Source of the DNA: Verrucomicrobiota bacterium
Lineage (GTDB): Bacteria > Verrucomicrobiota > Kiritimatiellia > SS1-B-03-39 > UBA6053
DNA: 64,000 bases
NCBI GenBank assembly: GCA_020831635.1
Contig: JAFIGC010000011.1
Coordinates: 1-64,000 of the forward strand
Direction: 5' to 3'
Shown: in pieces, positions 17,007 to 32,987 of the stretch
Position numbering within the stretch: position 1 is the stretch's first letter
Layout of the letters: each line of letters begins with the position of its first letter
Program-made: the position numbers and the translations under genes
The notes under the pieces: model-generated
The model's database searches: none
Seen by the model: only the letters and a program-made list of their open reading frames with translations
What the model was told of the DNA's origin: nothing

Positions 17007-17771
17007 ATGGTATCCTCCGCCTCCAGTTCCCAGACCGCGCCCGGCCCCGCGAGGCCGGTCTTGGAATTGGAGAATATCGTCAAACGTCGCGAGAAAGGCG
17101 ACCAAGTCTTTGAACTCCGCGTACCCTCCCTCCAAGTGGGTGCCGGAGAATTTGTGGTCATCGCGGGAGAAAGTGGTTGTGGAAAAAGCACTTTGCTGGA
17201 CATGCTGGGGCTCGTGCTCAGCCCCACATCCGGTGATCGTTTCCTCCTGCGCTCCGGTTCCGGACGCGAACATGCCATCCTGGGGCTTTCCTCCGGCAGA
17301 CTCGCCGCCCTGCGTCGCTCCGAACTGGGCTACGTCCTCCAAACCGGCGGGCTCCTCCCCTTCCTTTCCGTCCGCGACAATGTGCTGCTCCCTTGCAAAA
17401 TCAATGGACGCCATGACCGCCATGGCCCGGCCATGGATCTGTGCGAACGCCTGAAAATCACGGCACAACTCCACAAAAAACCTCAATTTCTTTCCGGGGG
17501 CCAACGCCAACGCGCCGCCATCGCCCGCGCCCTCGCCCACCAGCCCCCCATCGTCTTGGCCGATGAACCCACCGCCGCCGTGGACAAGCTGACCGCACGG
17601 GAAATCTGCAACACCTTCAAGGAACTCACCCGCATGATGGGGGTAACCCTCCTCATGGTCACCCATGACGTGGATCTGGTGCGCGACATGATGGACCGGA
17701 GCTATTCCTTCACCATCAGCCGCCCCGAAAACCACCACACCATTTCCGTTTGCACGGAGGACAAGCCATGA
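17007..17771 (+). CDS. ABC transporter ATPase (LolD/MacB class; TagT-like by context)
   Basis: This 254-residue cytoplasmic ATPase of an FtsX-type ABC system has Walker A GESGCGKST (54-62), signature LSGGQRQR (about 161), Walker B IVLADEPTAAVD (about 183-194) and the H-loop MVTHD. ATG at 17007 lies 11 bases after the vWA stop with GAAGAGG upstream. An insert near residues 75-95 (RSGSGREHAI) is unlike standard LolD. The stop overlaps the permease start (ATGA). LolD/MacB-type systems act mechanically across the periplasm rather than importing solutes. Its position next to the vWA, FGE and lipoprotein genes supports equivalence with TagT. Confidence 0.9.
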   Translation: MVSSASSSQTAPGPARPVLELENIVKRREKGDQVFELRVPSLQVGAGEFVVIAGESGCGKSTLLDMLGLVLSPTSGDRFLLRSGSGREHAILGLSSGRLAALRRSELGYVLQTGGLLPFLSVRDNVLLPCKINGRHDRHGPAMDLCERLKITAQLHKKPQFLSGGQRQRAAIARALAHQPPIVLADEPTAAVDKLTAREICNTFKELTRMMGVTLLMVTHDVDLVRDMMDRSYSFTISRPENHHTISVCTEDKP

Positions 17772-19603
17772 GCCGCACCTCCCGTCCCATGCAACCCGCC
17801 CTCATCCTTCGCCTCGCCCTGGCGGACTTGCGCCATGAGTGGATCCTGACCTTTTGCCTCGTCCTCGCCATTTCCGCGGTGATCGCCCCGCTGCTTTTGC
17901 TCTTCGGCCTCAAACACGGCACCATCGAAACCCTGCGCATGCGCCTGGTGGAAGATCCCAAAAACCGGGAGATCCGACCCATGGCCAGCCTCACCTTCAC
18001 CCGGGATTGGTTTGAGGAAATGGCGAACCGCCCCGACGTGGCCTTTCTCACCCCCATGACCCGCCAGATTTCCGCTTCCGTGACCGCCCGCATCGCGGGC
18101 AAGGACGGGTCCGCGGATCTGGATCTGGTCCCCACCGGGCCGGGGGACGCCCTGCTCTTGGAAAACGGGGCCCCCATCCCCGGCGAACAGGACGCGGTCT
18201 TGAGCGCCCTGGCCGCGGAATCCCTAAACGCGGTACCCGGGGATGTGCTGGTGGTGGATGTCACCCGCGTGGTGGGCAATCGACGCGAACGGGCCTCCGT
18301 GGAATTGCGTGTGGCAGGGACCACGAGCTTGCGCGCCGGCGCCCAGCGACTCGTGTACGTCCCCCTGGCTTTGATCGAACAGGTGGAAGCCTATCGCGAT
18401 GGTCAGGCCGTGCCGGAGTTGGGCTGGTCCGGCTCCCAGCCCGAAGCCTATCCCTTGTTCGATGGTGTGGTGGTGGCCACGAAAGAACCCATGACCGTTC
18501 TCCTCCAGCAACGGTTGCGGGCCAACAGCGGCTTTACCCAGTCCCGCGACCTGCCCGCGGGCGAAGTGGAGATGCTGCTGGGATACCCGTTGCGACAAGA
18601 AGCCGCCCTTTTCGCGCTCTCCACGCAAATCCGACCCGCGGGCATGGAAAATCTCAACGCGGTACGCACCCAACTCCGCGGCCAAAACGCCAGCATGCTT
18701 CCGTGGGTCAAACCCATGCGCGCCACCCTGATCGAACATGGACATGAACTGGAAATCCGCGTGCTTCCCGCCGAAGCGACTTCGCTCGGGGTCCTGCCCT
18801 CCCCCGCCCTGCTGGAGGAGGCTGAAAAAGGCCCGATTCCCGCCATTCTTCCCGAGGGGATCGCGGAAACGGGGGCGTTGCTTGAACTCGAAGTGGCCAA
18901 CGACACCGGCACCTTGCATTTTCCGGTCCGCGTGGCCGGAACCCATATGCTGTCGGAACCCACCCTGTTCCTTCCGGAGCGCGTGGGCGGCATCCTGCGG
19001 CTGTCCGAAACCCGTCCGCTGCGCTACGATCCCGAGCGGGGCGTGTTTCTGATGTATCGCCGAGGATACGCGGGGTTCCGCATGTACGCACGCAACATCG
19101 AGGACGTGGCCATGCTCCGCCAACTCATGGAATCCCAAAACATTCCCGTGCACACGGAAGCGGAGCGCATTCATTCCGTTCAAGAAATGGACCGGTACCT
19201 GACCTTGATTTTTTGGCTGGTGGCCACCGTGGGCATTGCCGGGAGCGTGGCCTCCCTGGTCGCCAGCCTCTACGCCTCCGTGGAACGCAAGCGCCGGGAA
19301 CTGGGGGTTTTGCGTCTCATCGGCCTCCCCTCCAGCCGCATGTTCCGCTTTCCGGTCTATCAGGGCGTGCTGATCGCGACCGGTGGTTTTGGGGTGGCCC
19401 TGATGTTCTTCCACTTGCTGGCCAACACCATCAATCACATGTTTGCCAGTCATCTGCAAACCGGCGAACGCTTTTGCTTTCTGCCCGTGGACTACACGGC
19501 CATGGCCCTGGGCGGGGTGGTGGCCGTCGCGGCCCTGTCCGCCGTCGCCGCCGTGGTGCGTCTGGCCCGCATCGACCCCGCCGAAGCCCTGAGGGACGAA
19601 TGA
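17768..19603 (+). CDS. FtsX-family ABC permease (TagS-like by context)
   Basis: This 611-residue inner-membrane permease is translationally coupled to its ATPase. One membrane span near residues 25-48 (ILTFCLVLAISAVIAPLLLL) is followed by a large periplasmic domain (about 50-480). Three C-terminal spans form the FtsX domain: LIFWLVATVGIAGSVASLVA, then a segment after SSRMFRFPVYQGVLIATG, then MALGGVVAVAALSAVAAVV. The coupling motif ERKRRELGVLRLIGL and the terminal ARIDPAEALRDE are typical of LolC/MacB permeases. The architecture matches systems that move or signal to outer-membrane partners, and in this setting TagS. Confidence 0.9.
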   Translation: MSRTSRPMQPALILRLALADLRHEWILTFCLVLAISAVIAPLLLLFGLKHGTIETLRMRLVEDPKNREIRPMASLTFTRDWFEEMANRPDVAFLTPMTRQISASVTARIAGKDGSADLDLVPTGPGDALLLENGAPIPGEQDAVLSALAAESLNAVPGDVLVVDVTRVVGNRRERASVELRVAGTTSLRAGAQRLVYVPLALIEQVEAYRDGQAVPELGWSGSQPEAYPLFDGVVVATKEPMTVLLQQRLRANSGFTQSRDLPAGEVEMLLGYPLRQEAALFALSTQIRPAGMENLNAVRTQLRGQNASMLPWVKPMRATLIEHGHELEIRVLPAEATSLGVLPSPALLEEAEKGPIPAILPEGIAETGALLELEVANDTGTLHFPVRVAGTHMLSEPTLFLPERVGGILRLSETRPLRYDPERGVFLMYRRGYAGFRMYARNIEDVAMLRQLMESQNIPVHTEAERIHSVQEMDRYLTLIFWLVATVGIAGSVASLVASLYASVERKRRELGVLRLIGLPSSRMFRFPVYQGVLIATGGFGVALMFFHLLANTINHMFASHLQTGERFCFLPVDYTAMALGGVVAVAALSAVAAVVRLARIDPAEALRDE

Positions 19604-21150
19604 TGCACCACAAATTTTTCCTGCTTTTCTTCCTTTTGGCTTGGGTCGGACTGGCTCCGGCCCAAGACCCCGACAACCCCAAACCGACCGAGGAGGACCT
19701 GATCCTGCCCATGCCGGGCGGCGGCGCCATGGTCTTCCGCCCCGTCTTTCTCGATGTGGGGGACGGGCCCTACGCGACCCGCGAATTTAAAATGGGCGAC
19801 CGGGCCATGGGTGGTTACAAAGAACACCCCACCGCCGTTCTTCTGGGCGGGTCCTTTGTGAAGGAAAATCAGGGCCAACCAGACTGGATGTACTGGATCG
19901 GCAAATACGAGGTCACCGAACGACAGTACAACCGGATCGTGAACCCCGAAGTAGAAGGGAGTCTGGAACCCAAAACCCAAATTTCCTGGCACGAGGTTCA
20001 GGACTTCATTCACCGATACAACCTCTGGTTACTGGAAACCGCCCCCGACCGCATGCCTGCCCTGGACGAAACGCCTGGCTTTCTGCGCCTGCCCACCGAG
20101 GAGGAATGGGAATTTGCCGCCCGCGGCGGGAACGAGGTGTCCATGGACATCTTTGACCGCAAACATCCCTACGGCCGAAACCTCAACCGCCACGAATGGT
20201 ATTCCGGGCCCCGCTCCTCCCACGACCGCATCAAAAACATCGGACTGCTCCGTCCCAACCCGCTGGGCATACACGACATGTTGGGCAACGTCTCGGAAAT
20301 GACCTCCGTTTCCTACCGCTTGGAATACCTTCAGGGACGTCCCGGCGGCTTCGCCTCCCGCGGCGGAAATTTCCGCACACCGGAAGCTCACTTACGTTCC
20401 TCTTTTCGCACCGAGCACGCCTTTTATCTGGCCGACGGAAGCCCCGCCGCCCAAGCCGAACTGGGTTTCCGTCTGGTCATCGCCGCCCCCGTCTTCGCAG
20501 GTCGCGAAACCATTCAGGCCCTGGAGGAATCCTGGGCGGACTACCGCCGCGAAAACCCCACCCCCGGAACCGCCGCCCAGTCCACCGCCCCCGCCGCCGA
20601 ACGCACCTTGTATTCGCTGGACGACGCCCGCAAAACCTTGGAACGTCTGGAGGCCGGCCTTCAACGTGCCACCGTCGACGAGGACACCCTCAACGCCCTC
20701 GGACTTCTCCGCGCCTCCTTTGGCGATGTGCAGGCCATGGTGCTGAAGGCCGAGCGGGATTCCGCCGCCGCCTGGGCCCGCATCGCCTCCTCCAACGCCA
20801 CCTTTTTGCGCGGGGAGGTTCGCAAAATTCCCGCCTCCCTCCGGGTAATCGAAATCACCAAACAAACCGGGGGCGCCGCCGAGCTGGCCCTCTACGAACA
20901 ACGCCATCAAAACCTCCTTAACAACATTCAAAACACCCGAAACCTCTATGGTCTCGCCATCCGCGAACTGGGCAAAGTCGCCCCCGAACGCGCCCGGGAA
21001 GGCTTTGCCGCCTACGAACGGCATTTGATCGAACTGGGCTTGGCCGAACAAATCCAAGTCAACAACCTCGTCCTGAAACAATATCTCGAATACGTGGAGA
21101 CACGGCGTCTCAACCTGGAAGCGTGGGAAACACAACTCCAGGGCTTCTGA
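19600..21150 (+). CDS. exported formylglycine-generating-enzyme (SUMF1)-like protein with coiled-coil tail (TagR-like)
   Basis: This 516-residue protein starts at an ATGATG overlapping the permease stop, with signal peptide MMHHKFFLLFFLLAWVGLA(PAQ). Residues 50-300 are an FGE-sulfatase/SUMF1 fold: YWIGKYEVTERQYNRIV, RLPTEEEWEFAARGG, NPLGIHDMLGNVSEM, RGGNFRTPEAHLRSSFR and LGFRLV. The paired cysteines of true formylglycine-generating enzymes are not seen, so a binding or sensing role is more likely than catalysis. The C-terminal 200 residues are a charged coiled coil, which TagR of Pseudomonas lacks as far as I know. It is probably periplasmic and a partner of the adjacent lipoproteins. Confidence 0.85.
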   Translation: MMHHKFFLLFFLLAWVGLAPAQDPDNPKPTEEDLILPMPGGGAMVFRPVFLDVGDGPYATREFKMGDRAMGGYKEHPTAVLLGGSFVKENQGQPDWMYWIGKYEVTERQYNRIVNPEVEGSLEPKTQISWHEVQDFIHRYNLWLLETAPDRMPALDETPGFLRLPTEEEWEFAARGGNEVSMDIFDRKHPYGRNLNRHEWYSGPRSSHDRIKNIGLLRPNPLGIHDMLGNVSEMTSVSYRLEYLQGRPGGFASRGGNFRTPEAHLRSSFRTEHAFYLADGSPAAQAELGFRLVIAAPVFAGRETIQALEESWADYRRENPTPGTAAQSTAPAAERTLYSLDDARKTLERLEAGLQRATVDEDTLNALGLLRASFGDVQAMVLKAERDSAAAWARIASSNATFLRGEVRKIPASLRVIEITKQTGGAAELALYEQRHQNLLNNIQNTRNLYGLAIRELGKVAPERAREGFAAYERHLIELGLAEQIQVNNLVLKQYLEYVETRRLNLEAWETQLQGF

Positions 21151-21181: not shown

Positions 21182-21823
21182 ATGAAAACACTCATTCCCC
21201 TCCTCATACTCTCCAGCCTGCTGGCGGGCTGCGCCACCTCCGACGATCAAAAAACCCGCCAACAGGGTGCAGGCTTCGGCGCCGCCGGGGGTGCCCTCAT
21301 CGGGGGTATCATCGGTCACCAAAGCGGCCGCGGCTGGGAAGGCGCCTTGATTGGCGCCGGTGTCGGTGCCGTGGCCGGCGATATCTATGGCCAGCATGTG
21401 AGCCAAAAAAAAGCCGAGTTCGCCTCTCAAGAGGAATACCTCGACGCCTGCATCGCCGAAGCTTCGAACAAACATCAGGCCGTCCTCGCCCAAAACCAGC
21501 AACTCCAAATGGAAATCGTCTCCCTCGAACAGGAATTGAACACCCTGGCGGCCACCGCCGAATCTCGCGCCGCCCATGCCGAACGTCTCAAGCAAATGCG
21601 CAAACATCTCGCAAGCCAAATCAAGTCATCCGAGAAAGAACTCGGAGCCCTGAACGATGAGATTGCGTTGCAACGCGCCGTCCTGAACGAGGAAAAAGCG
21701 ACCGCGCCAGAAGGCTCCATCCAACGCCTGGAAGCACAAATCACCGCCTTGGAAGAACAACGGGAGCTTCTCCGCGAAAACACCCGTCAATTGGCCGCCC
21801 TCAACAACCGTGCCTCCGCATAA
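21182..21823 (+). CDS. glycine-zipper lipoprotein with coiled coil (positional TagQ equivalent)
   Basis: This 213-residue lipoprotein starts MKTLIPLLILSSLLAGC, with lipobox LAGC at Cys17 and Ala at +2, favouring outer-membrane sorting. Residues 28-75 are a glycine zipper (GFGAAGGALIGGIIGHQSG, then GALIGAGVGAVAGDIYG) that may insert in a membrane. The rest, to the end, is a long coiled coil. ATG 21182 is preferred; a TTG five codons upstream would spoil the signal peptide. TagQ in Pseudomonas is the outer-membrane lipoprotein of the TagQRST group. Here the equivalence rests on position and lipidation, not on recognised sequence similarity. Confidence 0.8.
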   Translation: MKTLIPLLILSSLLAGCATSDDQKTRQQGAGFGAAGGALIGGIIGHQSGRGWEGALIGAGVGAVAGDIYGQHVSQKKAEFASQEEYLDACIAEASNKHQAVLAQNQQLQMEIVSLEQELNTLAATAESRAAHAERLKQMRKHLASQIKSSEKELGALNDEIALQRAVLNEEKATAPEGSIQRLEAQITALEEQRELLRENTRQLAALNNRASA

Positions 21824-21838
21824 GCCAAGGAGTCCCAC

Positions 21839-22333
21839 ATGAAATCTCCATACCTTCTCCTCGCCCTCGCCCTCCTCTGTGGTTGCAGCACCTCCAGCGA
21901 CCCGAGGGAGGGCGGACTCGTCGGCTACTGGTCCACCGGCCGGCAAGGCTACCAACAACGTCTTGACGAACGCGGCCAAACCTTGGAAGGCATCCAGCGC
22001 CAAACCGCCGAAGAGGAACGCGCCGGCCAATCCGCCGCCGCCCGCAGGCAATCCCTGCGGGAACAACTCGCCCAACAACGCGCGCGGCTTCAGGAAATCG
22101 AAGACCAAGTGGAGGCCCTGCTCGACGAGAGCGAAGCGCTCAATCTGGAAACCCTCGCCAAACAGGAAGAACGCGCCCAACTCTCCAACGACCTGCGCGC
22201 CCTTCGCAGTCGTGTGAACGCCGCCCAAAAGGATCCGGAAATCCGCATCGCCGAACGGGAGCGGGAACTGGAAAAACTTCAGGAAGAAGTTGGCCTCCTC
22301 CTCGAACGCTACTCACTGCTCACCACCCTCTGA
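21839..22333 (+). CDS. small coiled-coil lipoprotein
   Basis: This 164-residue lipoprotein has signal MKSPYLLLALALLCGC (lipobox LCGC at Cys16, Ser at +2). Almost all of the mature part, from about residue 40, is a Glu/Gln/Arg-rich coiled coil (QRLDERGQTLEGIQRQTAEE, then EIEDQVEALLDESEALN). AAGGAG lies just before the ATG. It follows the previous lipoprotein by 15 bases and probably pairs with it, or with the coiled-coil tail of the FGE-like protein. I do not recognise a family. Confidence 0.75.
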   Translation: MKSPYLLLALALLCGCSTSSDPREGGLVGYWSTGRQGYQQRLDERGQTLEGIQRQTAEEERAGQSAAARRQSLREQLAQQRARLQEIEDQVEALLDESEALNLETLAKQEERAQLSNDLRALRSRVNAAQKDPEIRIAERERELEKLQEEVGLLLERYSLLTTL

Positions 22334-22340
22334 CCCGCTC

Positions 22341-23525
22341 ATGCCGAACCTGTCCGTACTCCTCTTTTTCATCTTGGCCACCAACGCCCCGGCTTTGCCG
22401 CTTCGGGCGCAAGAGGAGCGTTGGACCCGCAACGAGGCGATGCTGACCTTTTTCGAAGCCCTCCGCGCGGTGGAGGATCATGCCGTGGAACCCCACACCC
22501 TCGCCGAACTGGTGGAAAGCAGTCTGCGCGAACTTCTCCCCACCTTGGACCCTCACGCGGAGTACCTGAGCGCTGCGGAAATGGAAAAACGTTTCGGCAA
22601 GCCTGGCGAGGTCTATGGAGGGGTGGGCATGGAATTGCGCCTTACAGAAGCGGGCGTGAGCTGCTTTCCCTACCCGGACAGTCCCGCGGAACGGGCCGGC
22701 ATCCGGGAGGGCGACATCCTGGTCGCCGTCGATCTACAAGACGTGAAAGGAATGAACCCCCGGGAATGTGCCACCCTGATCCGGGGTCCTCTCCCCAGCC
22801 AAGTCCACCTGACCGTCCGCACCCGGGACAACGAAACCCGAAAGCTCAACGTGCTCCGCCAACAGATCAATCCGAAAACCGTGGTCCTCCGCAAGGAGCC
22901 GGGAGAAGCCCTGCTGCGCGTTTACACCTTCAACGCCTCCACTCCGGGGGAATTCCGTCGGCTTGTCAAGGGAGTGGCTCCCGAAGACACCCTCATCGTG
23001 GACCTCCGGGGCAATCAGGGAGGCAGCCTCTATGATGCCGTGGACATTGCCGCTTTTTTTCTGCCGGAAGGCCGCGAAATCCTTACCGTTCACAAACGTG
23101 ACGGCAGCCGAATTTGGAAAAGTCCCGCCGACGGCCCTTTTGTGGGACGGCGAGTGGTTTTGCTCCAAGATGAAAACAGCGCCAGCGCCGCCGAGGTTCT
23201 CCTCGCCGCCCTCACCCGCAACGGGGCCGCCACCTCCATCGGCGCCCGCTCCCTTGGCAAGGGCACCACCCAACAGCTGTTTCCCCTTTCCACCGGCGGT
23301 GCCATCCTTCTGACCGATGGAACCCTCGAGGGCCCCGGTGGCTTGAACTGGAACAACACCGGCCTTCCGCCCGACATCCCCCTGCCTGATTTTAACAAGT
23401 CGGCTTGGGGAGCGGTGACCCTTTCAGACTCCCTCCCCCCCGCTTTCCCGGATATTTCCATCCCCCCCGGCACTCCCTCCGGGGAAAATCCGACCAAAAC
23501 CCCAAAAAACGAGAACATGCCATGA
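22341..23525 (+). CDS. exported S41 (C-terminal processing) peptidase with PDZ domain
   Basis: This 394-residue periplasmic serine protease of the CtpA/Prc family starts at ATG 22341 with signal MPNLSVLLFFILATNAPALP. A PDZ domain spans about 90-165 (GVGMELRLTEAGVSCF, SPAERAGIREGDILVAVD, CATLIRG). The S41 core contains LIVDLRGNQGGSLYDAVDIA, then ENSASAAEVLLAAL with the Ser nucleophile (Ser280 or 282), and GKGTTQQLFPL with the Lys base (about 307). The Ser-Lys dyad is intact. The C-terminus is Pro-rich. It is coupled to the next gene by ATGA. Family members trim or degrade envelope proteins, so it may process its operon partners. No partner is proven. Confidence 0.88.
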   Translation: MPNLSVLLFFILATNAPALPLRAQEERWTRNEAMLTFFEALRAVEDHAVEPHTLAELVESSLRELLPTLDPHAEYLSAAEMEKRFGKPGEVYGGVGMELRLTEAGVSCFPYPDSPAERAGIREGDILVAVDLQDVKGMNPRECATLIRGPLPSQVHLTVRTRDNETRKLNVLRQQINPKTVVLRKEPGEALLRVYTFNASTPGEFRRLVKGVAPEDTLIVDLRGNQGGSLYDAVDIAAFFLPEGREILTVHKRDGSRIWKSPADGPFVGRRVVLLQDENSASAAEVLLAALTRNGAATSIGARSLGKGTTQQLFPLSTGGAILLTDGTLEGPGGLNWNNTGLPPDIPLPDFNKSAWGAVTLSDSLPPAFPDISIPPGTPSGENPTKTPKNENMP

Positions 23526-25099
23526 CCACCAAAGCCCTCCTCCTTGCCTGCCTGATCGGCTTGTGCGGCCTCACCGCCCTTCGCGCCCAAACCCCGGAAG
23601 AAATTCGCGCCGCCCGTCGACTTCGCGCCGACGCCGCCTACCTCGAAATGAAAGGCGACAAAGCCCAGGCCCTCGAGAAATATGAGGCCAGCCTGGCAAT
23701 TCTTCCCGATGCCGCCATCGCCCAAAAGGTCGAGGAAATGAAGAGTGAGGCCCTCGGCCCCGTAGCCGATGTCTCCCAACTCACCGGCGAAATCTATGCC
23801 AAGCTGGATCTGGACGGCTTTATGCTCTTCCAACTCAACGTGGAAAGCCTGCTCAACCCCATCCGCGAAGAAGCCTTTTCCCTCATCAATGTCATGCAAT
23901 CCGCCATGGAAGATGAGGGCGAACTCGACGAAGATAGCGAACAATACATGTCAAATCTGAAAAAGGTCGATCCCGTCCTCGACTGGCTGGGCCTTTACGG
24001 CATACGGGGCATCGGCGTCAGCGTGGCACCCGTCGGTCCTCGGATTTCCCGCGCCAAAACCTACCTGCGCATTGACGAAACCCAGGCCGACCGCGCCCTC
24101 TGGCGCCTGGCGGGTACCCCCGCCTCCAAGAGCAATCTGGGCTATTTCCCCGCGGATACCGCCCTGGCACTGTCCACAAACGTCGGCCCCGGCGATTTGT
24201 GGATGCTGGTTCGGGACGGTTTCATGACGTTTGCCCCCGACCAGGTCGAAATGATGGGCATTCCGCTCGTGGAACTCGCCGAAATCCTCCCGGAAGGGGT
24301 TGACCCCGAGGATCTGATCACCTCCCTCAAAGGCGGTTTCTTCGCGGGGGTCATGCTCTCCGAGACCACCCGCGTGAAAATTCCGCTTCCCGACGAAGAC
24401 ATCCTCGACATTCCCCAACCCGGACTGATCCTCGGCATCCGTTGCGAAAACGATCTGCTTCATAAAACCCTGCTCACATTTCTGCGGGACGAAGCGGAAA
24501 TGCCCCTGACCGAGCAAACCGTCGCGGGAACCACGATTCATTCCTTCCCCTTGCCCATACCCATGCCCTTCACTGTGCAGCCCGCCATGACCCTTCATGA
24601 AGGAACCCTCCTCTTTGCCTCTCATCCCGATGTGCTGGACCAGGCCTTGACCGGCCATGCCCGGGGGGGCGGACTCCTCACCAGCCCGGCCTTCCTGGAA
24701 GCCAACGGCCCCATGCCGGATGCCCTCAACGGCTTCATGTACGTCAGCCAAAAACTCTTCAAGGAATACACGGATCTCTCCGTGAAAATACTCGCCCAAG
24801 ACCTGAGTTCCGAAGGCATGGCCGAACTGAACGCCCAACTGGCCCAGCTCCCCTCCCGCCGGGATGATAACTTCATCTCCTCTCACTCCATCCGCGATGG
24901 CGATGGCATCCTCTGGGTCACCCGCTCCAGAACCGCCTACGACCACCCCTGGGCGCCCTCCTTGGCCCGTGAAGCCACCATCTTCGCAACCATCGCCCGC
25001 GAACGCGCCCGCGAGATGCAACGAATCATGGAACTCAGAAGGCAGCAGATGCGGGAATGGGAAGAGCAAATGCGACAAATGGAGGCGGAAAACCAGTAA
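23522..25099 (+). CDS. secreted protein with N-terminal TPR-like motif, function unknown
   Basis: This 525-residue protein has signal MTTKALLLACLIGLCGLTAL, cleaved near RAQ. The mature N-terminus (residues 30-74) starts with the recurring TPR-like motif RRLRADAAYLEMKGDKAQAL plus YEASLAILPD. The rest is a mixed alpha/beta body with DVSQLTGEIYAKLDLDGF, GYFPADTALALSTNVGPGDL and a repeated-looking half TTIHSFPLPIPMPFTV. This resembles secreted DUF3352-like two-lobed proteins, which I offer only as a hint. A Met/Gln/Glu-rich helical tail (RRQQMREWEEQMRQMEAENQ) closes it. Its start overlaps the S41 protease stop. Confidence 0.7.
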   Translation: MTTKALLLACLIGLCGLTALRAQTPEEIRAARRLRADAAYLEMKGDKAQALEKYEASLAILPDAAIAQKVEEMKSEALGPVADVSQLTGEIYAKLDLDGFMLFQLNVESLLNPIREEAFSLINVMQSAMEDEGELDEDSEQYMSNLKKVDPVLDWLGLYGIRGIGVSVAPVGPRISRAKTYLRIDETQADRALWRLAGTPASKSNLGYFPADTALALSTNVGPGDLWMLVRDGFMTFAPDQVEMMGIPLVELAEILPEGVDPEDLITSLKGGFFAGVMLSETTRVKIPLPDEDILDIPQPGLILGIRCENDLLHKTLLTFLRDEAEMPLTEQTVAGTTIHSFPLPIPMPFTVQPAMTLHEGTLLFASHPDVLDQALTGHARGGGLLTSPAFLEANGPMPDALNGFMYVSQKLFKEYTDLSVKILAQDLSSEGMAELNAQLAQLPSRRDDNFISSHSIRDGDGILWVTRSRTAYDHPWAPSLAREATIFATIARERAREMQRIMELRRQQMREWEEQMRQMEAENQ

Positions 25100-25186
25100 A
25101 CGATCCCGCTTCATTCAGGGCGCGTTCAGAAAGCAAACGTCTGGCGAACGGTATCGAACAAGGAATTCATTGAGAAGGAGTATACC

Positions 25187-27223
25187 ATGTGGAACTTCCA
25201 CTTTTCGTCAAAGATTCGGCTGCCTTCAACCCGACACGGGGAACGCGCCTTGAACGTTACTGAGCCTGCTTGCGCGCATTTTCACCCCAAACGGTGTAAT
25301 TTCAACGCTGCCCGAAATTTGGTTTTCCTGCTCTTCTTCCTATGCGCCGGGTGGCTGGGCGCGCAAGTAGCTCCAGCAACAGAACTTGTACCAGCCTCCC
25401 TGCCCACGGAAGAAAATGTGCGCCAAGCGCGACGGGCCCGGGCGGATGCCGCCTACCAGGAAATGAAAGGGGATATCGAGCGGGCGATTGAGCAATACGA
25501 AGCCAGCCAGACGTTTTTACAAGACAGTGAGATCGTTGCGAAAATCGCCGAACTGCGCGGCCGAGCGATCCCAAAGCCTGAGCCGACGGCGACCACCACG
25601 GCAAACCAGGAGCAAGCCCCCGATCCAGCATGGATGCCCGATCAGGCTCCAGAACCCCTTGTTCAGGATCAATCACCCCCCGTTTTGAAGGCGAATCTGT
25701 CTATGCGTTGGATGGGATCCTTCCACATGGCGGTTCCCGTGACGTGGCAGCATCAATTTTATCGGCATCTCGAAATCCATGCGGATGGAAAATTCGAACG
25801 TTCCGTGACCAGTTATTCTTATGGAATTTACTCCGGCATCCCCTTGAAATCCCTCCTTGGGGACCTGTCGGTGGATGAGATCATCGGGCATCCAGCGCTG
25901 ACGATTGCCGCCGTGCAAGCCAAGAAGGATGAAACGATTGATAATTTCACATATGTCTTTAGAGGAATGCTCGTAAGGGCCGGGGGGAAAGACTTTCCCG
26001 TAGAGTTGCGGGATGCAACCTTGGCTGGACGGGCTGTGAAACGGATCGACGCTCCCATGGATGTGGAGCTTGCTCCTGATTCACCTCCTTTCCCGGGATT
26101 CATGCAGGCGTGGATATTCACCCAACCCGATTCCTCAATTTTACAGGGCGCAGTCATCATCAGCGGAAACAGAGACACTCTGGTTGAGAAGCAAGAGCTA
26201 TTGGATAAGATGCTTTCCTCCATCGATTGGGACACACCGCCTCCGTTCAAATCCGCCGGGGCCTTCTCCATCTGGGAGGGGGAAAAGCACTCCGTCCCCG
26301 CCATGCACGAATTTAATCTCTTTGGTAAAGTTCCCCTCCCCCGGGGTATTTCCGGCGTGGCTCTCGCAGCGGATGGCCGCGTGGCGGTCAGCCTGGGAGA
26401 CAAAGACGCGTTGATTCGCGTCTTCGATGCCCAGGGAACGTTTCGAAAGAAATGGTCCTTGCTCTTTGATGAAAAACATGGTGCCAATCCCAGATTGCTC
26501 AACATCTTCATGACGGCGCAGGACACCTTGTTTCTAACATGTGCTTCCTTGCGCGGCGATGCTTTCATTTTCGAGTACACGCTGGATGGCAAGCTGGTGA
26601 ACACCATCGGCCTTCAGCCCGTTGAGGTGGAGGGGGAGCAGATGAATATTCTCTCCCCACGTGTCCTGGGGGTCACGGAGTCGGGCGCCATCTGGTTACA
26701 GGGGCATATACGGGGTGAGAACATGTTGGTTCGTGTCAACCGCGAAGGTCATGTCGAGGTGAAACACAAGCTGGACCTGGATGTGAAGCTTTCCTCACAG
26801 TTGCCGGAAGGGTCTCTGGTAGGCGTGAGGGAGACGAAGTCCATGGTGCGGATTCTCGTCATCCAACCAGACGGGACAATTGCCCGTGAGTGGGGTCGGG
26901 GGGGTATTCAGTCATCCGCCGCTCTTGGGGGCGACCAGCTGTTTTTCGCAATGTCTTCAAGCCTGGCCGTTGACAACGTGGGACGCATCCTTGCATACGG
27001 AGGGAGGTCCCTGTTCATCTATGGCCCAGAAGGCAACCTCCAGCAAACCTATTCGCCGGATCCATCCCCCAGCTCCAAGGCGATCATCGTTCGTCCTGAT
27101 GGGAAGGTGATGATCGCCGGGCAACCGGACTGGGGTGGTCCGGCGCAAATCCTTTTGTACGAGCCCCGGGGCGGTCATCCATACCCTGCTCCTCGGGAAA
27201 ACCAAGGGACACTTGAAAAATGA
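25187..27223 (+). CDS. exported TPR-like motif / beta-propeller protein, function unknown
   Basis: This 678-residue protein starts at ATG 25187, preceded by a very good AAGGAG. The hydrophobic segment NLVFLLFFLCAGWLGAQ comes only at residues 44-60, so the export signal has an unusually long n-region (or the true start is an internal codon). The TPR-like motif follows (about 78-122: RRARADAAYQEMKGDIERAI). Then come a Pro/Gln linker, a beta-rich domain (170-370), and a propeller-like C-terminus (380-670) with ALAADGRVAVSLGDKDALIR, LAVDNVGRILAYGG and IVRPDGKVMIAG, as in NHL/SMP-30-type propellers. An 87-bp gap separates it from the previous gene; its stop overlaps the next start. Confidence 0.7.
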   Translation: MWNFHFSSKIRLPSTRHGERALNVTEPACAHFHPKRCNFNAARNLVFLLFFLCAGWLGAQVAPATELVPASLPTEENVRQARRARADAAYQEMKGDIERAIEQYEASQTFLQDSEIVAKIAELRGRAIPKPEPTATTTANQEQAPDPAWMPDQAPEPLVQDQSPPVLKANLSMRWMGSFHMAVPVTWQHQFYRHLEIHADGKFERSVTSYSYGIYSGIPLKSLLGDLSVDEIIGHPALTIAAVQAKKDETIDNFTYVFRGMLVRAGGKDFPVELRDATLAGRAVKRIDAPMDVELAPDSPPFPGFMQAWIFTQPDSSILQGAVIISGNRDTLVEKQELLDKMLSSIDWDTPPPFKSAGAFSIWEGEKHSVPAMHEFNLFGKVPLPRGISGVALAADGRVAVSLGDKDALIRVFDAQGTFRKKWSLLFDEKHGANPRLLNIFMTAQDTLFLTCASLRGDAFIFEYTLDGKLVNTIGLQPVEVEGEQMNILSPRVLGVTESGAIWLQGHIRGENMLVRVNREGHVEVKHKLDLDVKLSSQLPEGSLVGVRETKSMVRILVIQPDGTIAREWGRGGIQSSAALGGDQLFFAMSSSLAVDNVGRILAYGGRSLFIYGPEGNLQQTYSPDPSPSSKAIIVRPDGKVMIAGQPDWGGPAQILLYEPRGGHPYPAPRENQGTLEK

Positions 27224-27960
27224 AGACGATTAAAACACGCGTGATCCCCTTCCTCCTGTTGGCAGTTTTTTTTGTCGCCCACCTACTCGCGCAGAGTCCT
27301 GATGTCCTCCAGCGTGTCCGTCGTCTGCGCGCGGACGCGGCCTACGAGGAGATGAAAGGAAACCCCTCCAGAGCCTTGGAATTATACAAAGAAAGCCACA
27401 GGCTTCTTCCCTCGGACGAAACGGGTGCCAAAATCAGGGCCCTGGAACCTGCGGCCATGGAACGGGATCCCCTTGCCGGACCGGATTTGCCCCCGCCACC
27501 GGATGAGCTTCCCCGGGGGGACGCGGAGATCAGCCCCGCCGGACGTCTGGTCGACCTCATGGGCATGAGGGAATGGGTGGAGGAAGCCAAACCCGGATTT
27601 GTGTTGGAGCTGCTGAATGCCATGCCTGGCATGACAGACCATGTGGACCTCCTGATCGTGCATGTGGAGGAGACCTTGGACTGGCAAAAAATACGACCGG
27701 AGATTACCGCGCTGCTGGAGGCCTCGTTCACGCCCGACGAGTTGACAGACATGCTCGCGTTTTATCAATCTCCCGTGGGACGAAAAATGATGGCGGCCCT
27801 CCCCGAACTCTCCGCTGACATGCAACTCCGCATGGAGGGTTTGTTCTTGAACGACCTGGACATCCTCGAACTCCGAGTGAAACAGCGGGAGTTGGAGTTG
27901 TTGGAACGCGAGCTGACATTTCTGGAAGAAGAGCCCACCTTAACAGAGGAGCAGCCGTGA
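27220..27960 (+). CDS. secreted TPR-like motif + DUF2059-like protein
   Basis: This 246-residue protein has signal MKTIKTRVIPFLLLAVFFVA ending near LLAQ. The TPR-like motif begins right after cleavage (about 32-75: RRLRADAAYEEMKGNPSRAL). A Pro-rich linker leads to a DUF2059-type helical domain (about 105-220) with FTPDELTDMLAFYQSPVGRK and MMAALPELSADMQLRMEG; that family is periplasmic and of unknown activity. The tail is Glu-rich. The start and stop codons both overlap neighbours, so it is translationally coupled on both sides. Confidence 0.78.
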   Translation: MKTIKTRVIPFLLLAVFFVAHLLAQSPDVLQRVRRLRADAAYEEMKGNPSRALELYKESHRLLPSDETGAKIRALEPAAMERDPLAGPDLPPPPDELPRGDAEISPAGRLVDLMGMREWVEEAKPGFVLELLNAMPGMTDHVDLLIVHVEETLDWQKIRPEITALLEASFTPDELTDMLAFYQSPVGRKMMAALPELSADMQLRMEGLFLNDLDILELRVKQRELELLERELTFLEEEPTLTEEQP

Positions 27961-30900
27961 CCCCCCCGCCCGGTTTCAGCTTGGGCCGACGAAAATGGCT
28001 TCTCCTGTGCTGTCTCTGCCTTTCCCAGCCCTTGTTCTCACAATGGGTGCCGGAAAACACCGGGGACATCCTCAGGGCGTTTCGCTCCGTGGCGGAGCAG
28101 GGAGCAAACGCCCCACTCGACCAACAAGCTCTGGCCTTCAAACATTTCCCGGCCCTGGATGCCAACCTCTACCCGGAGGCCTCGGCCTATTGGGAGGCCA
28201 ACCAACAGAATTTCTGTCGATGGCAGGACAGGTTCATCCACGACGCGGCAACGGAAAACAATATGGCCTACCAACGCCAGACGGTGACCCGCGCCCCCAC
28301 GCGAGGATCCGACACAGATGCCCTGATGAGGCGGGCCTCACCAAATGATCCCCCGCTGACCGCCCAACAAATTGAACGGGCCCGCCGGGCATACCATCGC
28401 AATGTCCGCTCTTTTTTCAGGGAAAACCATGTGGCCAGCGATAATTTCATGCTGGAACACGAGACCTCCATCATGCCCGACCCCAACCACACCACCCGCA
28501 GGGAATGGGACCAATGGGTGCGCGAAGCCTCCGCCCGTGACGAAGTGATTTATCACGACCCCCTGGCCGCCTTATTTGAGGCCAACCATCGGAACCAACG
28601 CCCCTACACCTTGCAACAGGCGGACGCCCGGGTACAGGAATCCATGCGTCTGGCCCACGAGAGCTATGCGAAAGCGGACGCCCTCACCCGAAAGGCCATG
28701 GGCTATCCGGAGGGCAGCATGGCGCGGGCCCACCTCGAGTGGGAAGCCCAAAAAGCAAAACACAACGCCGCAAAATATTTGGCCCGGGTCATGGAAACCG
28801 GCGACCTGATTGCCGAAAATTCCCAGATTCGTTCCCAATCGGTTCTGGACCGGATGTTGATGCACGATGGCGACCCCCAAGAAGTCCTCAACCTGTTGTC
28901 GGAAAGACGGCAAACCAGACAAGGCCTACGGAATGCGGCCCAGTCCTCCGCTGCACGCGACCAATACATTCAGCGCGCCGCCCAACACTATGCCATCAAC
29001 CGCATGAATTCCGCCTGGGCGGGCGCGGGCGCGGACAACCCCGTTTTGAGAGCCACCCATGTCCGGGACGCCGCCCGAATGCTGAAACAAACCTCCACCG
29101 CCGCCCAAGGGGAGATGATCGAGCATTTCCGCCTCACCCATGGCGACGATGCAGCGAGGGAACTCGCCAGGGCCATGCGGGTGATCCCGGATGAAAACAC
29201 CCGGCGCAGCCTTATGAAAGGCCTGAACCGCCTTGCGGAGTCCAACCTTGACGCCCTGAATCGCGGCAACGCCACCGCCGCGAATGAGGCGTTGGAGGCC
29301 ATGGCCTTATCCTTGCGCTCTCAAACCCTGACCCAACAGCGGAACGCCCTGGATTCCCTGGCCCAAAAACATGGCCAGCCCATGGCCATACGCATCCAAC
29401 AACGTATGCTGTCATTACGGTTACAGGAGGCTCGTCTGGAAAAACGCAAGGAATGGCTGACCAAACACGGGGCGGAATATGTGGGCCACATGATGACCCT
29501 TTACGGCTTTTATTCCAGCCTCAATCGAATCGAAGCCGCCGAAGACGCCTCCAAACAAGGGGGAATTGAACTGGGGCAATTCACCGGAAGCTATCTGGGC
29601 GGCAAGGCGTCCACCCTCTTGTTGGGCACTTCATTCGGGGCGGTGGGAAAATACACCGGGATGACCTTGGGCGCAAAAACCGCCGCCTATGGTGCCAAAC
29701 TCGGCTTGAAATTCGGCGTGGCGTCAGGATCGCTGGCGGGTCCGCTGGGGCAAGTTGCGGGAGGGATTGCGGCAGGCATGATCGGCGGGGCCGTGGGCGG
29801 AGCCATCGGCGCCATCGCGGGGAACACCGATTCCTTTTTATGGGAACAGAATTTGTCCGAAGAGGAGTTCAACCGTAGGGCCCTGCAAGCCTCCGCCCCC
29901 CTGCCAGCCGATGTCTACCAACGCCTCCGGGGCCACGGCCTGGACCATGACCAGGCCTTGAACTTGGCCCAACTCTACCAAGGAGGCTCCCTGGCCGAAT
30001 TCAACCAACACATCCGCGCCATTCGCAAAGAAAAAAACCTGCGGGAAGAACGGGAATTGGACAACCGGGAACGGCTGGAGGCGTATCTTCGCGACCAAGC
30101 CTGGTTTCGCGCGAACTGGCTGGAAGAAGATCGCCGCCTCGCGGACAGGGAGCGTGAAATGGAATCCGCCATTTCCGGGTGGGTGGGCATGCTGCAGACC
30201 CTTCCCGCCGATGAACGGCAGCGCCTCATGAACAAAGCGGGCGTGCCCACTTGGCAAGCCGAGGAAATCCATCAACGCGTTCAGGCCTTCCAAAATGACC
30301 TCTCCCTCCAGGCCGCCCGCTTGGCCCAACTCCGCGCATGGGATGAACATACGCGGGGCTTGCCGCCAGACCTGCGGAGACAGGCCCTGCAGTCGCTTGG
30401 CGCCTCACCGGGGGACATGGTGGAGTTGGAGAACTACGCCAGGGAGACTCGCCAACGGGAATGGATCCACTTTTTGGCGATTCTGGAATCCCTCGACGCC
30501 GAGTCCCGCGCCGCCCGCATGGGGGAGCTGAATGCCATTCAATTGGAAGAGCTGGAGAAAATTCGAAGACACATTGCCGGGGCCCCCGAAACCGAACATG
30601 TTCCTGAACAAGCCCCGCCTCCCCTCGACATCGGGAGCCCGGAGGACTTCAAAGGGGTGTGGGTTTTGGACCGGGTTCATCACGAAACGTTTACGGATTA
30701 CCTCTTCAACAGCCCTCTTCCCCAACAATACAAAGAATTGGGCGTAACCGATTTCGAGCACCGGACCTCCGGAAGCATGGAGATGGGGGCGGGCCGGGGA
30801 CGCGCAACCGTCCGCCGGAATTCGGTGTACGCCTGGGAATTTGACGAGGATGGCAAGGTGACCAAAACCGTGCCCTATTCCTACTCCTTTGAGTTGGAGT

Positions 30901-32987
30901 ACTTCTGGAGCATCCCGCCTTTGGTCTTGCACGCGGGCGACAGGTGGTGGGGTCCCATGGAATTCGGCGTGCGAAAACTTCGTGCCGACGGTTTACGTCC
31001 CGGTACCGGAAACGATTACTTTTACCATGCTCTTACCCGCATGTTGATTCTGTTGGATCCGAAATCCACGACCCCCCACCACGTCCAGAATGACGCGCTC
31101 TCCTACATCCAGCCTATCATGGAGATGTACCCCTCCGCAACCGGGTGGAGGCTGGGCCGGGGACGTGAAGGGGATCGCCCCGATGGCAAATGGGAAAGCA
31201 TAATCAGTCCCCCGGGAACACCCGGGACGCGGGCGGGGCTCCCACACGGAACCGAGGAAGGGGTCACCACCCTGCGTATTAGCATCGACATGACCCTGCA
31301 AAGACAAAGGATTTTCCGTTCCCGAAACGACCCTGCCGAAGCCTGGACCACGGTGGAACGTGACCTTGAGAACGCCTTTTCCCCCACACAGTGCGCCACC
31401 TTATGGGATTACCGGTTTTATGACGACCCGGAGGAAGCGCGAGAGGCGGTTCAACGTGCCTGGGAACGGCAAGGTCAACACCAAACCCGCGCCCAAGAAG
31501 CGCAAGTCAGAGTCCTTGGCGCCCCGCTTCAGGCTCGCTTTGGTGACCGGCTAAACCTGCGGGCATGGTCCCTTCATACCGGTTCCTCCTATCGTTATGT
31601 CTGGAATTCAGAACCTTCCCTGGCCTTTGCCCAAACCATCTCAAACCAAGCGGAAAACGAGGTGACCCTGACCCGGGCGGGCGAGCTGTTGGTCTGGGTG
31701 GAGCTGCAACAACGATCCGGAGCCAACTGGGAAACGCTTGCCCAGTCCCCCGCCGTGCGTGTCGAGGTTCCCCCACCGCAGGTGGATCTGCATTTCCTTC
31801 CCGCCCCCGCCGAGGCTCGCGTGGGACAACCCGTTCATGTTCTGCTGCGCCCCCCCTCCAATTTAGACTCAGCCGAATGGCACTTTACCTGGCTTGAACC
31901 CGCCGACATCTTCACGGTGGATGCGTCAGGATGGGAGGTCCGGTTCACGCCGGCGGACGAAACGCCGGTTCCGCTGCGTGCGGAGGCTCGGTGGGGCGAT
32001 CATCCCGAGCCAAGCCTGTTTGTGGAGGAAGTGTTTTTGGTGCCCCCGGATCCAGGTGAAACCCTCGAGGAGCTTATGATGGAGTGGATTGAAAAAGGCT
32101 GGCAATTGGAAAACGAAGACGATTTGGCGCAAGCCTTGGAATGCTATCAAATCGCCTTTCGCTTGAAGGCACTGCCCCAGCTCGAAGAGCGCATTGAGGC
32201 TCTGAAGACCGAGATCGAACACCGCAAGCAGGCGGTCCTCCTTTTGCAAGAAGGGGAAATTCTGGCATCGCAGGGGAAACTGGAAGAGGCTTTGGTGCTT
32301 TGGCTTCAAGCCGAACAGCTTCACGCATCCTTGGAAATCCAGGAATACATCCAGCGTGTCCGCCGGCGGCTGCGGGCTTTGGAACTGAAAACCCAAGGGG
32401 ATCGCGAAGCGGAGACGGACAATCTCCAGGCCGCGCTCGCCGCATACAATTCCGCCCAACTTCTTGACCCCACGCTGCTCCTCCATACGCGGATTCATGA
32501 ACTGTCCCAAAGACTGGATGCGGAAACCCGGGCCCGGCAGTTGGTGGAGTTGGCCCACGGCTTTGAACTGCAAAAAAACCTGCCCGCCGCCATTGATCAT
32601 TACGAGCGTTCCTTGGGCTGGTTGGCCAACAAGGCGGTGGAGGATCGGATTCGGGAACTCAAACTTTTCTTGCAGCTCGACAATCTTCTCTGGGATGCCC
32701 GCTGGCATGAACAAGAAGAAAACTGGGAGGACGCCATTGAAACCTATGGCCAGATGCTGCGGCTCCAACCCAATCACAAGATCCGTGAGCGCATGCAGGA
32801 ACTCCATGCGCACGTCCACGTGACCACGGCGCAATCCAAAGAAGCCGAGGGCGACTGGTCCGGGGCAATGATGGCCTACATGATGGCCAGAAACGTGCGC
32901 CCATCTCCCGCCATCCAAGAAAAAATAGAGGAAATGCAACGAAACATGCGGTCTTCCCGCCTGATGGAAGAAGGCTACAATCGGTGA
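27957..32987 (+). CDS. giant exported protein: novel N-terminal region, glycine-zipper segment, Ig/PKD-like domains, TPR-like repeat array
   Basis: This 1,676-codon gene has a GTG start overlapping the previous stop (GTGA). Signal-like RRKWLLLCCLCLSQPLF precedes SQ. Residues 30-300 share landmarks with the protein at 8997: GSDTD near 118, MPDPNHTTR near 173, then YHDPLAA. About 525-620 is a long Gly/Ala-rich hydrophobic zipper (GGIAAGMIGGAVGGAIGAIA) that could enter a membrane. Charged helices follow (640-880), then a unique domain with LDRVHHETFTDYLF (about 905-1010). Two Ig/PKD-like domains lie at about 1180-1360. The last 310 residues are about six copies of a 50-residue TPR-like unit. This is likely a scaffold at the outer face. 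No enzyme motif is seen. Confidence 0.8.
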   Translation: MTPPPGFSLGRRKWLLLCCLCLSQPLFSQWVPENTGDILRAFRSVAEQGANAPLDQQALAFKHFPALDANLYPEASAYWEANQQNFCRWQDRFIHDAATENNMAYQRQTVTRAPTRGSDTDALMRRASPNDPPLTAQQIERARRAYHRNVRSFFRENHVASDNFMLEHETSIMPDPNHTTRREWDQWVREASARDEVIYHDPLAALFEANHRNQRPYTLQQADARVQESMRLAHESYAKADALTRKAMGYPEGSMARAHLEWEAQKAKHNAAKYLARVMETGDLIAENSQIRSQSVLDRMLMHDGDPQEVLNLLSERRQTRQGLRNAAQSSAARDQYIQRAAQHYAINRMNSAWAGAGADNPVLRATHVRDAARMLKQTSTAAQGEMIEHFRLTHGDDAARELARAMRVIPDENTRRSLMKGLNRLAESNLDALNRGNATAANEALEAMALSLRSQTLTQQRNALDSLAQKHGQPMAIRIQQRMLSLRLQEARLEKRKEWLTKHGAEYVGHMMTLYGFYSSLNRIEAAEDASKQGGIELGQFTGSYLGGKASTLLLGTSFGAVGKYTGMTLGAKTAAYGAKLGLKFGVASGSLAGPLGQVAGGIAAGMIGGAVGGAIGAIAGNTDSFLWEQNLSEEEFNRRALQASAPLPADVYQRLRGHGLDHDQALNLAQLYQGGSLAEFNQHIRAIRKEKNLREERELDNRERLEAYLRDQAWFRANWLEEDRRLADREREMESAISGWVGMLQTLPADERQRLMNKAGVPTWQAEEIHQRVQAFQNDLSLQAARLAQLRAWDEHTRGLPPDLRRQALQSLGASPGDMVELENYARETRQREWIHFLAILESLDAESRAARMGELNAIQLEELEKIRRHIAGAPETEHVPEQAPPPLDIGSPEDFKGVWVLDRVHHETFTDYLFNSPLPQQYKELGVTDFEHRTSGSMEMGAGRGRATVRRNSVYAWEFDEDGKVTKTVPYSYSFELEYFWSIPPLVLHAGDRWWGPMEFGVRKLRADGLRPGTGNDYFYHALTRMLILLDPKSTTPHHVQNDALSYIQPIMEMYPSATGWRLGRGREGDRPDGKWESIISPPGTPGTRAGLPHGTEEGVTTLRISIDMTLQRQRIFRSRNDPAEAWTTVERDLENAFSPTQCATLWDYRFYDDPEEAREAVQRAWERQGQHQTRAQEAQVRVLGAPLQARFGDRLNLRAWSLHTGSSYRYVWNSEPSLAFAQTISNQAENEVTLTRAGELLVWVELQQRSGANWETLAQSPAVRVEVPPPQVDLHFLPAPAEARVGQPVHVLLRPPSNLDSAEWHFTWLEPADIFTVDASGWEVRFTPADETPVPLRAEARWGDHPEPSLFVEEVFLVPPDPGETLEELMMEWIEKGWQLENEDDLAQALECYQIAFRLKALPQLEERIEALKTEIEHRKQAVLLLQEGEILASQGKLEEALVLWLQAEQLHASLEIQEYIQRVRRRLRALELKTQGDREAETDNLQAALAAYNSAQLLDPTLLLHTRIHELSQRLDAETRARQLVELAHGFELQKNLPAAIDHYERSLGWLANKAVEDRIRELKLFLQLDNLLWDARWHEQEENWEDAIETYGQMLRLQPNHKIRERMQELHAHVHVTTAQSKEAEGDWSGAMMAYMMARNVRPSPAIQEKIEEMQRNMRSSRLMEEGYNR

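Follow-up and report, generated by a model that had tools for sequence, protein, structure and literature searches.

A TPR-like tag on unrelated exported proteins of a Verrucomicrobiota gene cluster: a candidate docking module

Introduction

Why should several otherwise unrelated exported proteins carry one and the same short helical motif at or near their mature N-termini? The question is raised by a gene cluster in a 64,000-nucleotide stretch of DNA from a Verrucomicrobiota bacterium (the window, meaning the whole stretch that was analysed). A preliminary description of the region had read the motif as one TPR helix pair and had proposed that it serves as a shared docking or assembly tag. 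It is a known arrangement for unrelated exported proteins to have a docking module in common. Folded N-terminal docking tags on unrelated exported bacterial proteins have to our knowledge rarely been described, and our literature search found no description of this tag module, its conserved face or its partner set. Here we ask how specific the motif is, what fold it has, which part of it is held constant and with which genes it travels.

Results

The cluster lies on the forward strand. At its start is a giant protein, G1 (8997..14687), with a signal peptide, an N-terminal domain common to a second giant (G2), FecR, a tag and PPC. It is followed by genes for an exported vWA-domain protein (14914..16995), the core of the co-occurring gene set described below, an ABC transporter ATPase (17007..17771, start inferred), an FtsX-type permease (17768..19603), an exported FGE-sulfatase-domain protein (19603..21150), two coiled-coil lipoproteins and an exported PDZ-S41 peptidase (22341..23525). 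Lipoprotein 1 (21182..21823) has a glycine zipper and a conserved C-terminal tail that ends NRASA, and lipoprotein 2 (21839..22333) has the C-terminal sequence LLLERYSLLTTL. Three tagged proteins come next, namely the DUF3352-like M1 (23522..25099), M2 (25187..27223), which is weakly similar to an NHL propeller at another locus (L023), and the DUF2059 protein M3 (27220..27960), whose gene overlaps by 4 bases that of giant G2 (27957..32987), a protein with a repeat array at its C-terminus. The passengers of the three tagged proteins differ from one another, as had been claimed. That of M1 is only weakly DUF3352-like, with matches in 2 of 4 orthologues and a best E of 1.7e-4, and a search for solved structures related to it gave none that was convincing (best E 0.11). 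A defence system was considered as well and rejected, PADLOC having no match for eight cluster proteins.

The tag is a 54-residue module, and its four copies in the window align without gaps, copy 1 being 43-54% identical to the other three. With signal peptides called by eye, copy 1 (23591..23752) and copy 3 (27295..27456) stand directly at the mature N-termini of M1 and M3, as first described. The motif is likewise present at the N-terminus of M2 (copy 2, 25406..25567), though not right after the signal peptide as had been stated, since the apparent cleavage site lies about 14 residues before it. A Pro-rich linker joins tag and passenger in M2 and M3, and a short linker does so in M1. The single copy reported inside G1 was found at 13464..13625 (copy 4), with a Pro-rich stretch before it and the PPC region after it; it is internal, unlike the N-terminal tags. 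About six diverged copies had been placed at the end of G2, and six are indeed there (32055..32984), forming an array subfamily distinct from the tag subfamily. Their divergence is evident from their scores: the whole G2 protein matches a profile of the tag (profile A1) at E = 1.3e-7, yet individual array copies reach iE 0.02 or weaker.

When a profile was built from any three of the four copies, the one left out was found at E = 2.9e-15 to 4.7e-18 among the 875 open frames of the six-frame window, and the match between tags is therefore not due to chance. The search of the whole genome that had been suggested at the outset was run with profile A1 on all 6.0 Mb (maximum E 1) and returned 8 matches in total. 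Four are strong, each at E <= 5e-28, and all four lie within the cluster; three weaker ones sit in the G2 array (E 0.026, 0.060 and 0.123), and the remaining one covers 18 residues (E 0.049) of what looks like a solute-binding lipoprotein. As a control, Pfam TPR_2 gave at least 129 matches at E <= 1 in the same genome (150 of 247 candidates scored). The motif could have proved equally frequent in unrelated cytoplasmic TPR proteins; with four strong copies against at least 129 TPR_2 matches, it is not.

By sequence the tag belongs with the TPRs, and we call it TPR-like because it stays under the Pfam cut-off. Matches to TPR_2 at E <= 1 come from seven of ten tags (best 0.0029), and the first tag scores 17.2 bits where the cut-off is 27. 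Lone diverged TPR repeats often score in this way. The signature of TPR_1 and TPR_2 (L4, A/G8, A20, Y24, A/S27, P32) recurs in the tags with the same spacing: in the register given by the Pfam match, where tag column n is TPR position n-7, A8, A20, Y24 and S27 are present in 11 of 11 tags and L4 in 9 of 11. The first reading of the motif as one TPR helix pair holds for the hairpin, but the module has three helices, the third formed by the segment PDxxIxxKIxxL. Weak matches to the MIT domain, a three-helix docking domain of eukaryotic and archaeal trafficking, were also obtained for three of ten tags (E <= 1, best E 0.0068); they are under the cut-off, as is that of G2 (18.2 bits, cut-off 30).

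The array of G2 exceeds the TPR_1 cut-off (31.9 against 27.8). A structural model was made of the regular array of a homologous giant from another genome (G002), aligned with the array in the window; it is confident locally (pLDDT 93, pTM 0.54), and its global shape is uncertain. A model of the G2 array made without an alignment reached pLDDT 50.8 and was left out. The predicted helices are 30-32 and 14 residues long with a period of about 52, helix C of each unit continuing as helix A of the next. A solved TPR domain, taken together with the helix that follows it, fits one modelled unit over 54 residues at 1.7 A. This is the only match that we count, since VIA-align finds many helical repeats at Z 8-11 and describes such scores as common. 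Neighbouring TPRs stack into a right-handed superhelix; over its whole length the model reached TM 0.10-0.18 to known TPR arrays among the 50 matches listed, none of which was a TPR superhelix that fits the entire array. Tag and array repeat belong to one superfamily. Judging from this model of an array, a single tag would be a complete small domain and no fragment. The tags differ from other TPRs in being single, in having a third helix, in scoring under the Pfam cut-off and in a ligand face that is fixed where other TPRs vary.

Conservation is concentrated in the tag. Comparison of distant M1 orthologues gives 46-57% identity for the tag, against 30-33% for the passenger and 23-42% for the signal peptide. 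The best-conserved run of 12 among the 501 M1 columns falls on helix A of the tag (9 of 12 invariant, against 17% overall). Synonymous sites are saturated between the copies in the window (pS 0.61-0.80, pN 0.31-0.43). The most variable, ligand-facing positions of TPRs are 2, 5, 9, 12, 13, 33 and 34 according to PMC1261162. At the six co-crystal contact positions (2, 5, 6, 9, 12 and 13) the mean entropy of nine non-redundant tags is 0.33 bits, against 1.56 at the other exposed positions; in the arrays the two values are 1.80 and 1.82. Only 29 of 20,000 random position sets were equally low in the tags; the seven hypervariable positions stand out less, with 481 of 20,000 sets as low. The TPR ligand face is thus the part of the tag that is held constant, and it is variable in the arrays of the giants. 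Some of the nine tags came from searches with a profile whose seed copies had been picked by eye for helix A, and only the M1 orthologues are recognised by their passenger as well. Helix A is conserved throughout, and the effect at the ligand face may in part be a general helix-A effect.

We looked for the tag in 345 genomes of the class, in a phylum sample of 387 genomes and in a contig scan of another collection. Where more candidates were found, 17-19 were scored per genome, and weak copies may be missed because of this. A ten-copy profile matches at least 8 of the 345 class genomes at E <= 0.001. Strong single tags occur in three of them, the window's own genome (G000), G002 and G040. Four others (G058, G060, G077 and G079) have arrays within large exported proteins, and G019 was rejected as a tag carrier, its match being a generic TPR. 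No further strong copy was found in the phylum sample. The matches in G394, G432, G501 and G533 are, like that in G019, ordinary TPR-like stretches; that in G429, a genome left out of the comparison with the vWA set, is a single TPR at the C-terminus of an exported protein (E 3e-7). The contig scan used one 9-residue pattern, which gave 268 stretches and 3 relatives, and added two Opitutales genomes, G601 with three tagged proteins and G602 with two. At least six kinds of passenger stand behind the tag in these five genomes. The two Opitutales genomes have tags on M1 orthologues, on NHL propellers and on an unrelated protein of about 620 residues; a Sel1 protein is tagged in G002, its gene ending about 5 bases upstream of that for the array giant of this genome (2442 residues).

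Tag and vWA protein occur together. Among the 345 class genomes, the full-length vWA protein was found in exactly the three with strong tags, seven others matching the query weakly and around the vWA domain; G601 and G602 again have both. Two genomes of the window's own genus, G001 and G003, have neither strong tags nor the vWA protein. The set of eight genes (vWA, ABC, FtsX, FGE-like, two lipoproteins, S41 and M1) is complete in all five genomes, which represent few independent lineages, G000 and G002 being of one genus. In G040 it is dispersed over contigs C22, C26 and C46 and yet complete, so the association exceeds what linkage alone explains. One tagged protein of G601 is encoded off the contig of the set. 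Within L078:6467-11402 (C161), its gene stands about 3 kb before genes that look by eye like those for a CRISPR Cas3-type helicase and its neighbour.

The C-terminal tails of the two lipoproteins (window 21182-22333) are almost invariant in the five genomes, while distant lipoproteins are 39-50% identical. The tail of lipoprotein 2 does not differ between any of the five genomes, whereas invariant columns make up 27% of the whole protein, and in lipoprotein 1 nine of the final 12 residues are kept. The C-terminal tails of the FtsX and vWA proteins are conserved as well.

Discussion

Our analysis suggests that the tag is a docking module by which various exported proteins are brought to a single envelope complex, a reading that we favour by a modest degree on the evidence of sequence comparison. 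The TPR helix pair with its third helix would form a free-standing module that comes first among the folded parts of the mature protein and is usually joined to an unrelated passenger by the Pro-rich linker. The tags all show one TPR ligand face, R2, R5, A6, A9 and E12 in TPR numbering, and one face on all tags would imply that one common partner is recognised. This partner would lie within a single complex of the vWA protein, an ABC-FtsX exporter, the FGE-like protein, the two coiled-coil lipoproteins, the PDZ-S41 protease and M1, where M1 would be the constant tagged member and the other tagged proteins a variable accessory cargo. Binding, location in the envelope and membership of one complex are deduced here from conservation and co-occurrence. 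Points against this reading are the internal position of the tag in G1, the tagged protein of G601 encoded apart from the set, the small number of independent lineages and the possible general helix-A effect; the conserved tails of FtsX and vWA count against singling out those of the lipoproteins. As to the ligand, we can offer only a guess, that it is the invariant C-terminal tail of a lipoprotein or another tag. A fuller scheme, in which the two lipoprotein tails read the tags and gather cargo round a vWA, ABC-FtsX, FGE-like and S41 machine for sorting or assembly in the envelope, seems to us quite unlikely as it stands; the tails may serve another purpose, as signals to the PDZ-S41 protease.

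A different explanation is that tags bind one another or the array of the giant, which would act as a gathering scaffold in the manner of MamA self-assembly. The common superfamily of tag and array repeat fits this idea, as does the position of a tagged gene directly upstream of an array giant in two genomes, where M3 overlaps G2 and the Sel1 gene all but adjoins the giant of G002; because of this arrangement, homotypic binding may occur in these two. For the tags at large it is unlikely. The array giant is absent from three tagged genomes (G040, G601 and G602), array giants occur in three genomes (G058, G060 and G077) that have neither strong tags nor a full-length vWA protein, and the conserved face of the tag is missing from the array units. 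A G2-type array is consequently not the general partner of the tags, and the scaffold role that the first account had implied for it was dropped. What survives of the proposed docking or assembly tag is a module that is specific to the cluster, with many passenger kinds, a co-occurring gene set and a constant ligand face. It could also be that signal peptide and TPR were copied together by fusion as an export leader, with no common partner and with conservation for folding only. The position after the signal peptide and the three clustered tagged genes are what tandem duplication of an N-terminus would leave, but the proteins have the tags in common and not the signal peptides, synonymous sites are saturated, conservation is higher in the tags than in the passengers, the fixed residues extend beyond the core to predicted surface residues of the ligand face, and the copy in G1 is internal. 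We therefore regard such hitch-hiking as decidedly improbable.

The remaining explanation that we weighed is a link to an Akkermansia-type pilus, in which the tag would mimic the N-terminal TPR of an Amuc_1098-type secretin and route proteins to it. Five of ten tags give a match close to the N-terminal end of NCBIfam Amuc_1098 (best E 0.002); upstream, still within the window, are genes for GspE/PilB and GspF/PilC; and in G040 the FGE-lipoprotein-lipoprotein-S41 genes directly adjoin genes of the Amuc_1102-1101-1100-1099 families (L108, C26:14000-30000). This adjacency is seen in one genome only, the tag scores 16 bits against a model with a cut-off of 750, and the secretin of the pilus locus in G040 has a generic TPR alone (iE 0.13), which together make the link very improbable in our view. 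The cluster protein P0002 behaves as the tag does, with 13.8 bits against the same cut-off and residues 63-117 alone matched. Secretins at four loci (L069, L111, L112 and L113) were without the tag in the stretches read, and those on contigs C212 and C181 of the window's genome were without it by the profile search of that genome alone.

The docking reading invites comparison with known systems. In the dockerin-cohesin system a small module is carried by many unrelated exported passengers, sometimes at a locus that also encodes a giant of tandem modules. The tag is likewise one small module on many unrelated exported passengers; here, by contrast, the single module and the array share a superfamily, and some genomes have no array. 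Dockerins are marked by a calcium-binding motif and their cohesin partners by a beta-sandwich fold. We know of no sequence relation between the tag and this system, and Pfam dockerin and cohesin gave no match at E <= 1 in cluster proteins P0001-P0005. MamA is a TPR protein that forms homo-oligomers by self-assembly; unlike the module here, it has several TPRs and is no tag on other proteins. The C-terminal sorting domain of the type IX secretion system (T9SS) also marks unrelated secreted proteins for one machine by a common terminal domain. It is C-terminal, is cleaved on export and belongs to Bacteroidota (PMC5053529), whereas the tag is a helical N-terminal module.

If the docking reading is right, one short profile would be enough to enumerate the proteins of an undescribed exported complex, including those with dispersed genes or with other domains of obscure nature, and R2, R5, A6, A9 and E12 would give a defined surface to probe.

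Two observations on the giants may be added. The N-terminal domain common to G1 (9063-9932), G2 (28188-28832) and the giant of G002 (G1 against the latter, E 2e-20) had no match in Pfam at E <= 0.1; it has GTDTD or GSDTD and later TDFM-type acidic motifs, which we take to recall nucleotidyltransferase folds. Large exported proteins of the class at five other loci (L036, L037, L038, L049 and L054) combine regions that look Ig-like with helical arrays of 52-residue units in up to 16 copies, and several of them end in a similar-looking beta-rich domain.
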